NCBI GenBank assembly: GCA_937142855.1
Contig: CAKZQZ010000039.1
Location: 1 to 35,458 of the forward strand
Source: an uncultured Alphaproteobacteria bacterium
Lineage (GTDB): Bacteria; Pseudomonadota; Alphaproteobacteria; Puniceispirillales; Marisalimonadaceae
Direction: 5' to 3'
Length of the DNA stretch: 35,458 nucleotides
Positions within the stretch are counted from its first letter, which is position 1, and each line of letters begins with the position of its first letter. The notes beneath the pieces were generated by a model. It was given only the letters and a program-made list of their open reading frames with translations, made no database searches and had not been told where the DNA came from. Shown here in pieces: positions 28,792 through 32,534 of the stretch. Made by a program: the position numbers and the translations under genes.

Positions 28792-30459
28792 TTAAACATC
28801 AATTTTATTGATTGCACTTATTACAGCTAAAATTGGCGCCACAGTAATACTTGTATCAATTCCACATCCAAAAATGGAATCTTTTCCATCATTAAATTTA
28901 AGTTCTACATATGCTGCAGACTCAGCTTTGGAAGTTGCACTTCTTGTATTTTGACCAAAATCTTCAAGAGTAAATTTTAATTTAAAATTTTCTCGCATAC
29001 CATTCACAAAAGCAGAGATAGGACCATTGCCTTGAGAAGAGAATTGAAAGATTTCACCCTTAAAACTAACTTTAGCATTAATTATCTCTAAGTTTGATTC
29101 TCTGTTGGCACCTTCAACTTTAAAATCAATTAATTCATATGGACCTTTGATTAAAAAGTTTTCTGAAAAAGTTTTCCATATCACATCACTAGTAATTTCG
29201 CGGCCTGTTTGGTCAGCTATTTTTTGTACTTTTGAAGATAACTCTATTTCAGCTTTTTTAGGTAATTTAATGTGATAATCAGTTTCTAAAAGCCAAGCGG
29301 TTCCACCCTTGCCTGATTGGCTATTAACTCTTATTATGGCTTCGTAAGTTCTACCGATATCTGCGGGATCAATTGGTAAATAAGGAACAGCCCATTTGTT
29401 ACTTTTTGTTTTTTCTATATTTTCCATTCCCTTTCTTATGGCATCTTGATGGCTCCCTGAAAATGCCGTGTGAACAAGAGATCCTGCATACGGATGTCTT
29501 TCATGAACTGGAAGTCTATTACAGAACTCAGCTGTTTCAATTAAATCATTAATCTGACTGAAATCAAGATTAGGGTCTATACCTTGGGTTAACATATTTA
29601 GACCTAATGTTACTAAATCTACATTACCTGTTCTTTCTCCGTTTCCAAACAATGTTCCTTCTACTCTATCTGCGCCTGCCATTAATCCTAATTCTGTGGC
29701 AGCTATTGCGGTGCCTCTATCATTATGAGGGTGAAGTGATAGTATTACCCTTTCCCTATTACTAAAATTACTTCCCATCCATTCAATTTGATCTGCGTGA
29801 ACATTGGGAGTAGACATTTCTACTGTTGCAGGTAAATTTATTATAACGGGCTTTTCTTTTTTTGCTTCCCAAACATCTAAAACTGCTTCACACACCTCTA
29901 AGGCATATGGTAATTCAGTCCCAGTAAAACTCTCTGGAGAGTACTGTAATCTTATATTTGAGTTATTAAGTTTATGGAGATTTTCAGCAATTATTTTTGC
30001 CCCATCGGTAGCAATTTTCTTCACTCCTTGCATGGTTTCTTTAAAAACAACTTCTCTTTGTAAAGTGCTAGTCGAATTATAAAGGTGCATAATTGCATTT
30101 TTACAACCTTTAAGGCTTTCAATAGTTTTTAATATCAGAGGTTTTCTTGATTGAGTTAAAACTTGAACGCTCACATCTGAAGGAATATGTCCATCTAAGA
30201 TTAATTCCCTTACAAAATTAAAATCAGTTTCAGAAGCTGATGGGAAGCCGATTTCAATTTCTTTAAAACCCATTTTAACTAATTGTTTAAACATTCGCAT
30301 TTTTCTGATTGAGTCCATTGGTTCAACCAGAGCTTGATTGCCGTCTCTTAAATCAACTGAGCACCAAGTGGGAGCTTTTGTGATAATATTATTTGGCCAT
30401 TGCCTATTATCTATTTTAACTGCTGGATACGGATCATATTTTTTATGGCTGTTATTCAT
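28792..30459 (-). CDS. leuA: 2-isopropylmalate synthase (long LeuA form)
   Basis: 555 residues, the longer LeuA type. It joins acetyl-CoA and 2-oxoisovalerate, the first committed step of leucine synthesis. N-terminal TIM barrel: WCSVDLRDGNQAL (R38, D39 at the active site), PSASETDF near 74, and the metal/acid site HPHNDRGTAIAATELGLMAGADRVEGTLFGNGERTGN. A C-terminal leucine-sensing domain begins near 425 (GPYELIDFKVEGANRESN and FGQNTRSATSKAESAAYVEL), so allosteric feedback inhibition is expected. AAGG before the ATG serves as ribosome site. Upstream lies a 31-codon leader ORF rich in leucine plus a GC-rich hairpin, consistent with attenuation by leucyl-tRNA supply. Confidence 0.95.
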   Translation of the reverse strand: MNNSHKKYDPYPAVKIDNRQWPNNIITKAPTWCSVDLRDGNQALVEPMDSIRKMRMFKQLVKMGFKEIEIGFPSASETDFNFVRELILDGHIPSDVSVQVLTQSRKPLILKTIESLKGCKNAIMHLYNSTSTLQREVVFKETMQGVKKIATDGAKIIAENLHKLNNSNIRLQYSPESFTGTELPYALEVCEAVLDVWEAKKEKPVIINLPATVEMSTPNVHADQIEWMGSNFSNRERVILSLHPHNDRGTAIAATELGLMAGADRVEGTLFGNGERTGNVDLVTLGLNMLTQGIDPNLDFSQINDLIETAEFCNRLPVHERHPYAGSLVHTAFSGSHQDAIRKGMENIEKTKSNKWAVPYLPIDPADIGRTYEAIIRVNSQSGKGGTAWLLETDYHIKLPKKAEIELSSKVQKIADQTGREITSDVIWKTFSENFLIKGPYELIDFKVEGANRESNLEIINAKVSFKGEIFQFSSQGNGPISAFVNGMRENFKLKFTLEDFGQNTRSATSKAESAAYVELKFNDGKDSIFGCGIDTSITVAPILAVISAINKIDV

Positions 30460-30476
30460 AATTCTTTACCTTAATT

Positions 30477-30561
30477 TAAGTTTATTGCTTAATTTAATTA
30501 ATTAATAAATCTATCCCGAACTCCTTAGAGCACGGGTTTCTTAATAAATTTAACAAACTTA
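30477..30561 (-). promoter_or_regulatory. Candidate leucine attenuator structure upstream of leuA
   Basis: Two pairings are possible on the minus-strand transcript. One is a compact hairpin at 30515-30536: CCCG/CGGG, an inner CTC/GAG, and a G-U with one mismatch between them. It is strikingly GC-rich for this gap. The second is a 10-base pairing (one G-U) between the leucine codon run (30552-30561) and a segment just upstream of the leuA ribosome site (30477-30486), enclosing the first hairpin. A ribosome stalled at the leucine codons would block both. No proper T-run follows the hairpin, so control may act on translation rather than termination. Confidence 0.45.
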
Positions 30562-30589
30562 GTGGTTTTGAATTATTTTTATGTATCAT
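30494..30589 (-). CDS. Candidate leucine-rich leader peptide of leuA, 31 codons
   Basis: A short ORF ending 34 bases before the leuA start. Translated, it reads M-I-H-K-N-N-S-K-P, then L-S-L-L-N-L-L (codons 10-16 with CTA, TTG, TTA, TTA, TTA), then R-N-P-C-S-K-E-F-G-I-D-L-L-I-N and TAA. Five leucines in seven codons, placed just before a hairpin and just upstream of a leucine-synthesis gene, is the layout of an attenuation leader. A possible promoter (TTGACT about 40 bases upstream with a poor -10) would leave almost no leader before the ATG. TTA codons are frequent in AT-rich DNA, so chance cannot be excluded. Confidence 0.45.
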   Translation of the reverse strand: MIHKNNSKPLSLLNLLRNPCSKEFGIDLLIN

Positions 30590-30731
30590 GTCAAAACTTT
30601 ATCAATTCTATTAATATTAAGTCAAGTTTTTACAATAATATAAGTTTTTTTAATATTGCCAAATACAATGTTTAAAACTACTTTGCATTGAAATAGATAC
30701 AATATAACTAATTATTCTATACAGGGTTTTA

Positions 30732-32534
30732 ATGAAGGACATTAAACTAATAAGAAATTTTTCAATAATTGCTCATATTGACCATGGCAAATCGACACTT
30801 GCTGACCGACTAATCCAAGAATGTAAAGGGTTAGAGGATAGAGAGATGAAAGAGCAAGTACTTGATAATATGGATATTGAAAGAGAACGTGGTATTACAA
30901 TCAAAGCACAGACAGTAAGGTTGCTATATAAACATACAGATAATCAAACTTATACATTAAATTTAATGGATACTCCTGGTCATGTTGATTTTGCTTATGA
31001 AGTTTCTCGTTCTTTATCTGCATGTGAGGGATCATTACTAGTTATAGATTCATCACAGGGGGTAGAAGCACAAACTTTAGCTAATGTTTATCAAGCAATA
31101 GATGTCAATCATGAAATTGTTACGGTTTTAAACAAAATAGACCTTCCAGCTTCAGAACCAGAACGCATAAGAAAACAGATAGAGGATGTAATTGGTTTGC
31201 CAGGAGAGGAAGCTATAGAGGTTTCGGCAAAAACTGGTCAAGGTATCAAAGAGGTTTTATCAACTTTAGTTGAAAGTCTTGCGCCTCCAACAGGTAATCC
31301 AAACGCTCCGTTGCAGGCATTATTAATAGATAGTTGGTATGATCCTTATCTGGGTGTTTTAACTTTGGTAAGGGTCGTAAATGGTACTTTAAAAAAAGGT
31401 CAAAAAATACGATTTATGTCAACTAAAGTATCACACACTATAGAAAAACTAGGAATATTTACACCTAAAATTCTAAACGTTGATCAATTAGGACCAGGTG
31501 AAATAGGTTTTATTACAGCTTCTGTTAAAACAGTTGCAGATTGTAAGGTAGGTGACACAATAACAGAAGACCGTAATCCAGTTTTGACTATGTTGCCTGG
31601 TTTCAAACCTTCTGTACCGGTTGTTTTTTGTGGCCTTTTCCCAATGGACAATGCACAATTTTCAGATTTACGTGAGGCTTTGAGCAAGCTTTCTCTAAAT
31701 GATGCATCATTTAGCTTTGAAGCTGAAACTTCTGCTGCATTAGGTTTTGGATTTAGGTGTGGTTTTTTAGGGTTGCTGCACATGGAAATTATTAGAGAAA
31801 GATTGTCTAGAGAGTTTGATTTAGACCTTATTTCTACTGCACCATCAGTTGTATATAAGGTTCAAAAGAGTGACGATACAAACCAATTGCTTCACAACCC
31901 TGCAGATTTGCCTGATATTAATCACATCAATTTTATTGAAGAGCCATGGATCAAAGCAACTATTATGGTTCCAGATGAATATGTTGGCTCAGTTTTGACT
32001 TTGTGTACCGAAAGAAGGGGCGAACAAATAGATTTAACATACGCTGGAACAAGAGCTATGATTATTTATAAATTACCTCTAAATGAAGTTGTGTTTGATT
32101 TTTATGACAAATTGAAAAGTATGACATCAGGTTATGCCAGCTTTGATTATCAAATGGATGATTATAAAAAAGGTGATCTTGTAAGGGTATCGATTTTAGT
32201 TAATGGCGATCCTGTAGATGCCTTGGCTATGATAAGCCATCGGGAGCAAGCTGAAACTAGAGGTCGTGCAATATGTACAAGATTAAAGGATTTGATACCT
32301 AGGCAATTGTTTAAGGTGGCTCTGCAAGCAGCAATTGGCGGCAAGGTTATAGCTAGAGAAACTATCTCCGCCATGAGAAAAGACGTTACTGCAAAATGTT
32401 ATGGCGGCGACATAAGCCGTAAAAAGAAGCTTCTAGAAAAACAAAAAGCGGGTAAAAAAAGAATGAGACAATTTGGTAGTGTAGAAATACCCCAAAATGC
32501 TTTTTTTGAGGCTCTTAAAATGGGTGATAATTAA
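30732..32534 (+). CDS. lepA: Elongation factor 4 (LepA)
   Basis: 600 residues, translational GTPase that back-translocates stalled ribosomes and influences initiation and subunit assembly. G-domain motifs are intact: AHIDHGKST at 14-22, [10 protein letters not shown] near 51, DTPGHVDF near 80, NKIDLP near 134. Domains II and V follow, and the LepA-specific C-terminal domain ends with [27 protein letters not shown], which is diagnostic. AGGG lies just before ATG 30732. The gene is divergent from leuA across a 272-base gap and ends 4 bases before the stop of a convergent small gene. Confidence 0.96.

Follow-up and report, generated by a model that had tools for sequence, protein, structure and literature searches.

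In the enteric leu operon attenuator a leucine-rich leader ORF, leuL, lies before leuA with its own ribosome site and is followed by an intrinsic terminator with a T-run. In the translational attenuators of erm and cat genes the signal is a drug-stalled ribosome, which, halted within a leader ORF, uncovers a ribosome site that is otherwise hidden, and leaderless polycysteine short ORFs of mycobacteria reportedly act as attenuators that respond to the amino acid they encode. Among published elements, the closest in layout to the one presented here is the actinobacterial LEU element that precedes leuA (Seliverstov et al. 2005, PMC1262725), which has a leucine-run leader ORF and is described as a pseudoknot; no terminator is described for it, LEU leader mutations at odds with classical attenuation are cited, and its codons are given no accepted role. 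In mode of start, the closest known system is the leaderless trpL of Sinorhizobium meliloti, whose trp attenuator is terminator-based (PMC7298713, PMC10117765).

In this work we describe an element that precedes leuA in the window, the whole stretch of 35,458 nucleotides that was analysed, from an uncultured alphaproteobacterium whose genus belongs to the SAR116 clade. Members of this clade are abundant in surface oceans, and most are uncultured. The literature searched contained nothing on leader peptides in SAR116, and the element is not described in any title or abstract found in open-access literature. We consider it likely that the element is an attenuator of some kind, and, on the strength of modelling, lean towards reading it as a leucine-dependent translational attenuator of leuA with a leaderless ORF. 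It shares with the LEU element a leucine-run leader ORF before leuA, a stem of leader codons with the leuA Shine-Dalgarno sequence, which here is predicted, and the lack of a described terminator; the LEU element differs in being described as a pseudoknot and in coming from another phylum, and the likeness noted is one of layout. The features shared with S. meliloti trpL are an alphaproteobacterial host, a leader ORF at the 5' end of the transcript (a position that is predicted here), and codons for the amino acid of the pathway, but the S. meliloti system works by a transcription terminator, and none was seen in the window. Enteric leuL shares the leucine-rich leader ORF before leuA and differs by its T-run terminator and its own ribosome site, while the mycobacterial attenuators, which are said to respond to cysteine, belong to another phylum and concern another amino acid, and the erm and cat signal is a drug-stalled ribosome where the signal proposed for SAR116 would be missing charged tRNA. 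The element unites three traits that are usually found apart, namely a probably leaderless leader ORF, an amino-acid codon sensor, and predicted translational rather than termination control.

The gene leuA is transcribed divergently from lepA, which lies at 30732, and the intergenic gap of 272 nt holds the leader:

28792 to 30459, minus strand: leuA, 2-isopropylmalate synthase, 555 aa, with TIGR00970 above the cut-off
30494 to 30589, minus strand: leucine-rich leader ORF of 31 codons, MIHKNNSKPLSLLNLLRNPCSKEFGIDLLIN, taken from the ORF list and conserved in relatives
30542 to 30562, minus strand: control codons 10-16, with Leu at 10, 12, 13, 15 and 16, read from the translation
30515 to 30536, minus strand: hairpin P3, directly after the leucine codons, CCCGTGCTCTAAGGAGTTCGGG, with evidence from covariation and a pattern search

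An earlier note on this DNA had claimed a 31-codon minus-strand ORF running from 30589 to 30494 with leucine at five of the seven codons 10-16, and a GC-rich hairpin at 30515-30536 right after the leucine codons; both are there exactly as described. Among 3000 dinucleotide shuffles of the intergenic strand (272 nt), 14 produced an ATG ORF with at least five leucines in seven codons. In the window P3 consists of 4 bp, a U.U mismatch, 4 bp and a UAAG loop. Between the leader promoter described below and lepA, a plus-strand block (30640-30700) is conserved in relatives, with TTGCCA or TTGCAA and TACTTT or TAATTT boxes, and is probably the lepA promoter.

Of 61 genomes, counting that of the window, 48 yielded a leuA gene. 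The leader ORF occupies the same place in all 24 genomes of the window's genus with a leuA start there, and with three loci added later (L034, L046 and L048) a leucine-rich ORF and P3 precede leuA in all 27 genomes of the genus in which an intact leuA start was found. A covariance model (R1), built on 28 leaders comprising these 27 of the window's genus and one (L049) of the sister genus g12, matches 27 of 40 genomes of the genus with E < 1e-15; among the 13 without a match, 12 have no leuA match and one (G030) has only the C-terminal part of leuA. Across the order the model matched 31 of 136 genomes, all in the window's family. A pattern describing P3 was found at one place in each of 41 of the 136 genomes, again all of the window's family (27/40 in the window's genus, 2/3 in g11, 2/2 in g12 and 10/13 in g13), the near-palindrome matching both strands in three genomes, and the reversed pattern was found in none. 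The sister genera g11, g12 and g13 have the same layout in other sequences: the g12 leader begins MKIYYNSRPIEVLNLLINPASEESG, a g11 leader contains TILALLICPVSKEPG, and the g13 leaders are of 14 codons, for example MKLYNLSIYNLLIL, stopping just before P3. The short ORF and its leucine codons, which the earlier note had proposed to look for in relatives, are kept throughout the genus wherever the leuA start is intact, as well as in these three sister genera. In one g11 locus (L148, genome G066) leuA carries one in-frame TAA and the leader region is without P3, possibly through joint decay of gene and leader or through sequence error.

Comparison of these leaders at the sequence level shows that the ORF, its leucine codons, its reading phase to P3, the promoter spacing treated below and P3 itself are conserved. 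The distance from the leader ATG to P3 is 53, 50, 47, 44, 41 or 38 nt, and equals 2 mod 3 in 43/43 leaders, a set from which L142 was omitted because its genome is that of L049, L148 because its leuA has an internal stop and its leader lacks P3, and L169, of the second family, because it has no P3. Counting back from P3, codon -2 is leucine in 39/39 peptides distinct within their genus, drawn from two families, with leucine at codon -5 in 33/39 and at codon -3 in 26/39. All eight leaders fetched later have the ATG 33-36 nt after TTGAC, the same phase of 2 mod 3, and leucine at codon -2, the leucine position being read by eye; for L225, L227 and L228 the first ATG after TTGAC was used, though a second is present, and in leaders of the second family the ATG near the promoter was picked by eye. 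The frame of the ORF is open through P3 in 27/28 leaders while the other two frames are stopped in 28/28. The one exception, L019 (1371-1500), has a TGA directly 3' of its leucine codons and represents a natural truncation; it keeps P3, with a G-C replacing the common G-U pair. In most leaders of the window's genus Ile and Val codons precede the leucine codons, and therefore the supply of these amino acids, besides that of leucine, may act in most sister leaders; the window's own leader has only leucine there.

These observations bear on the possibility that the conserved object is a metabolite- or protein-binding cis-acting RNA around P3, resembling a riboswitch, with the ORF arising incidentally from the RNA sequence. 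In favour of this, no part of the element is more conserved than P3, with CTC and GG.G invariant, and the ORF is free of synonymous bias, 26% of single-base codon differences being synonymous in frame compared with 24% and 32% in the other two frames. The latter result, which is also a point against the attenuator reading, counts against selection for a conserved peptide as such, and selection looks to act on codons and RNA instead. A riboswitch-like reading nevertheless has to contend with a reading phase kept through six leader lengths, with leucine codons that are likewise kept, and with a leader ATG at a fixed distance from the promoter. No Rfam family accounts for the element either, since with Rfam 15 at gathering score only tRNAs were matched in the window and 16 loci, of which L048 and L049 represent this family. 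We regard this reading as highly improbable.

Evidence for P3 as an RNA structure comes from its covariation score, which over 17 distinct family sequences is 0.123 against 0.063 in shuffles and was reached by 1/500 of these. Its share of paired cells was also reached by 1/500 shuffles, and the four cells changed on both sides (as in the change from G-C to U-A seen at pair 4/19 in g11 and g13) were reached in 4/500; the number of doubly changed pairs, two, was matched in 155/500 and is not unusual. These events are few, and the tool cautions that relatedness of the sequences can by itself lift such values above those of shuffles where no structure exists. The apical part of P3 (30521-30527 in the window) presents an AAGGAG-like, and thereby Shine-Dalgarno-like, stretch in many leaders of the family and in some of the second family.

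Upstream of the leader ORF lies a promoter-like site that the earlier note had missed, TTGACT - 18 nt - TAAAGT, with a TG before TAAAGT:

30620 to 30625, minus strand: -35-like box TTGACT of the leader promoter, from a promoter scan, its weight coming from conservation
30596 to 30601, minus strand: extended -10-like box TG-A-TAAAGT, 6 nt before the leader ATG, from the promoter scan and its spacing

The scan yielded 63 promoter-like sites compared with 69.4 in shuffles, no excess, and the site therefore counts only by its conserved spacing. In 43/43 leaders the TTGAC box starts 33-40 nt upstream of the ATG, and a Shine-Dalgarno-like tetramer precedes the leader ATG in 4/43. Because this spacing puts the start of transcription near the ATG, the leader ORF is probably leaderless; we infer a transcript start at about 30590, at or within a few bases of the ATG. 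Promoter spacing, reading phase and codon placement are by themselves enough to find such leader ORFs. The ilvB gene of the same genome showed no shared leader after its TTGAC site.

Folding of the leader region places two outer helices around P3, through which leader codons are predicted to pair with the approach to leuA:

30570 to 30576, minus strand: 5' arm of helix P1a, ATAATTC, leader codons 5-7, pairing with 30464-30458 in folding
30458 to 30464, minus strand: 3' arm of helix P1a, GAATTAT, including the AU of the leuA start codon, from folding
30564 to 30566, minus strand: 5' arm of helix P1b, ACC, pairing with GGT at 30470-30468 of the leuA Shine-Dalgarno sequence
30468 to 30472, minus strand: leuA Shine-Dalgarno sequence AAGGT, which contains the P1b 3' arm; AAGG is invariant in 28 aligned sequences
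30552 to 30561, minus strand: 5' arm of helix P2, TAAGTTTGTT, leucine codons, pairing with 30486-30477
30477 to 30486, minus strand: 3' arm of helix P2, AATAAACTTA, from folding

The 10-base complementarity that the earlier note had seen corresponds to P2, with ten pairs of which one is G.U; it is present, but taken alone is not significant, arising in 22% of 1000 shuffles when G.U is allowed. What that note had missed is that in the folds leader codons 5-9 form an outer helix with the leuA Shine-Dalgarno sequence and start codon. Among members of the window's genus the leucine run is folded onto the stretch immediately 5' of the Shine-Dalgarno sequence, which is itself paired by other leader codons, whereas in g13 it is predicted to be paired by the leucine codons. 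Pairing that hides both the Shine-Dalgarno sequence and the start codon is predicted in most family leaders folded.

In the window, the 201-nt leader region folds better than 199/200 shuffles (z -3.0). With P3 kept and both arms shuffled, the window's two-arm duplex has a z of -2.57 (p 0.01) and its whole fold a z of -2.10 (p 0.03). This test, the comparison of leader-to-ribosome-site duplexes given next for the genus and g11, and the stall model below were applied to 34 of the 43 leaders, all of the first family; in the first two, L048 is tallied apart from the other 26 of its genus. The two-arm duplex beats the shuffle mean in 34/34, with a mean z of -2.64 in the genus (n=26), -1.46 in g13 and -1.24 in g11, and a z of -0.31 for L048. 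Six of the 34 leaders (L024, L048, L143, L145, L146 and L147), among them both from g11 and two of three from g13, have a whole fold that does not surpass shuffles when P3 is kept. Set against shuffled leaders, the duplex between leader and ribosome site is stronger in g13 (mean p 0.035, n=10) and g11 (0.006, n=2), and weakly stronger in the genus (mean p 0.13, n=26; L048 0.33; window 0.16). Six of the seven P1a pairs are invariant among 28 leaders (27 of the genus, one of g12) and one is A-U/G-U. Taken as a whole together with P3, the structure is formed in 94% of cells in the 28 leaders and 95% in g13 compared with 21-56% when slid by 1-3 columns, as scored on the same sequences from which it was derived. 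Mean base openness gave a weak difference from shuffles in the 28 leaders (percentile 0.31 for the Shine-Dalgarno sequence, 0.27 for the AUG), and in the window openness of the Shine-Dalgarno bases is not below shuffles. The covariation that the earlier note had suggested seeking in both of its helices is thus divided, compensatory changes being found in the GC hairpin while the other helix is kept without covariation above controls, a result that holds for the outer helices in both the 28 leaders and g13; genus-level alignments, their sequences too alike, are uninformative in this respect.

Together these features would allow leuA to be governed in the following manner. Transcription would begin on the leader ATG or only a few bases from it, and the ORF would be translated without its own ribosome site. 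When charged leucyl-tRNA is plentiful, ribosomes would run past the leucine codons and leave, upon which the ribosome-free leader codons could zip onto the stretch before leuA with P3 as a cap, hiding the Shine-Dalgarno sequence and start codon. When leucine is short, a ribosome would stall on the leucine codons directly before P3 and cover the 5' arms of P1 and P2, freeing the leuA ribosome site. The start site, the stalling and the response to leucine are what we infer, and the sequestration and release of the ribosome site are modelled. In the stall model, which assumes a footprint of about 16 nt from the P site and removes RNA up to that edge, a stall at the leucine codons makes the leuA ribosome site cheaper to open, by a mean of 2.9 kcal/mol compared with 0.4 for shuffled leaders; the gain is above the control mean in 32/34 leaders, and on average 11% of shuffles reach the observed cost. 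For the window the cost falls from 5.4 to 2.2 kcal/mol, with a control gain of 1.1 and 7% of 40 shuffles reaching it. The modelled stall gives no release in 5/34 leaders (L005, L006, L009, L146 and L147). With regard to the proposal in the earlier note that a stalled ribosome would break both pairings, the assumed footprint agrees for the outer helices only, and with a ribosome at most of the leucine codons P3 would remain standing.

The same model also accommodates a constitutive form of coupling, in which translation of the leader merely keeps the leuA ribosome site open, the leucine codons are incidental, and there is no response to leucine. Any ribosome on the leader would melt P1 and P2, and the window's modelled opening cost drops at every codon position; yet the leucines fixed at codon -2, and nearly so at -5, are hard to explain without a role for the codons. 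The leader stop lies at least 29 nt upstream of leuA in 50/50 leaders, which is far for re-initiation and speaks against such coupling, which we think improbable. For the same reason, termination-reinitiation at leuA was rejected.

A weightier rival to translational attenuation is transcriptional attenuation, in which the leader ribosome would determine whether RNA polymerase reads on into leuA or halts short of it, either because P3 serves as a weak intrinsic terminator or because Rho acts on leader RNA left untranslated. A leader ORF with control codons followed by a GC hairpin resembles classical amino-acid attenuators, and P3 is retained by the second family, for which the model mostly does not predict that the ribosome site is released. 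The earlier note's statement that no T-run follows the hairpin holds in the window, which fails a loose T-rich rule (at least five T in eight bases, 0-2 bases after P3) and in which P3 is not among the six terminator-like sites found; an intrinsic terminator is not supported there. In relatives the picture is mixed, as 28/50 leaders pass this rule; a run of at least five T, within 20 bases, starts 4-13 bases after P3 in 15/50, and five T start four bases after it in 8/50. These genomes are AT-rich and the T-rich counts stand without a shuffle control, an unbroken T-run at the foot of P3 occurs in 0/50 leaders, and no competing antiterminator was seen in the folds. We therefore consider control by transcription stop unlikely, though to be taken seriously. 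The earlier note's preference for translational control is favoured by modelling of ribosome-site release, with the T-rich relatives keeping the transcriptional form as its rival.

The arrangement extends to a second SAR116 family, in which ten loci (L025, L026, L156, L158, L160, L161, L162, L170, L171 and L231) display the same order of promoter, leader and P3. Their leaders either begin, for example, MWLLIRTLFRLISPALAL, or resemble MMFLLNTLCLRL, and P3 is longer, with energies of -18.7 to -21.4 kcal/mol in the nine folded. Model R1 has no match in the second family, whose element can be related to this one only through its layout and the resemblance of the hairpins. A second-family hairpin pattern was found in 14 of the 136 genomes of the order, comprising 10/12 of the second family and four of family f4, compared with five genomes for the reversed control; the G055 and G051 matches sit on a different contig from leuA, and in G121 and G124 leuA was not located. 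By eye, the element is absent from four upstream regions of family f3 and eight of f4. Extended to the class, the pattern matched 59/385 genomes against 22 for the reversed control, and this search was dropped as its matches were not traced to leuA. In the second-family genus g8 the gap looks C-rich and is perhaps a Rho site.

The stall model gives clear release in 1/9 second-family leaders (L158), suggesting that either another step operates there or the shared core, leucine codons against P3, acts otherwise. More tentatively, and with considerable doubt, we propose that the two SAR116 families share a leucine switch consisting of a leaderless ORF whose leucine codons are fixed against a conserved hairpin at the ribosome entry site, to which one family would have added sequestration of the ribosome site while the other works by another step; the hairpin, and not a classical terminator, would then be the working part of the sensor. 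The family offers a sharp setting in which to test how the stalling of a ribosome against a hairpin can switch the gene that follows.

Beyond the order, leucine-rich leader ORFs, often ending GDRR.. and followed by a GC hairpin, were observed about 110-300 nt before leuA in Rhizobiales and others (L067-L110). Those of these Rhizobiales-type leaders that were run against Rfam gave no match. A TAAGGAGC-like loop, sought as one pattern, occurs in 13/46 upstream regions (L065-L110), and 11 of these 13 have a downstream complement of at least 6 nt (GCTCCT type), which suggests, at the level of sequence, a pseudoknot-like leuA leader.
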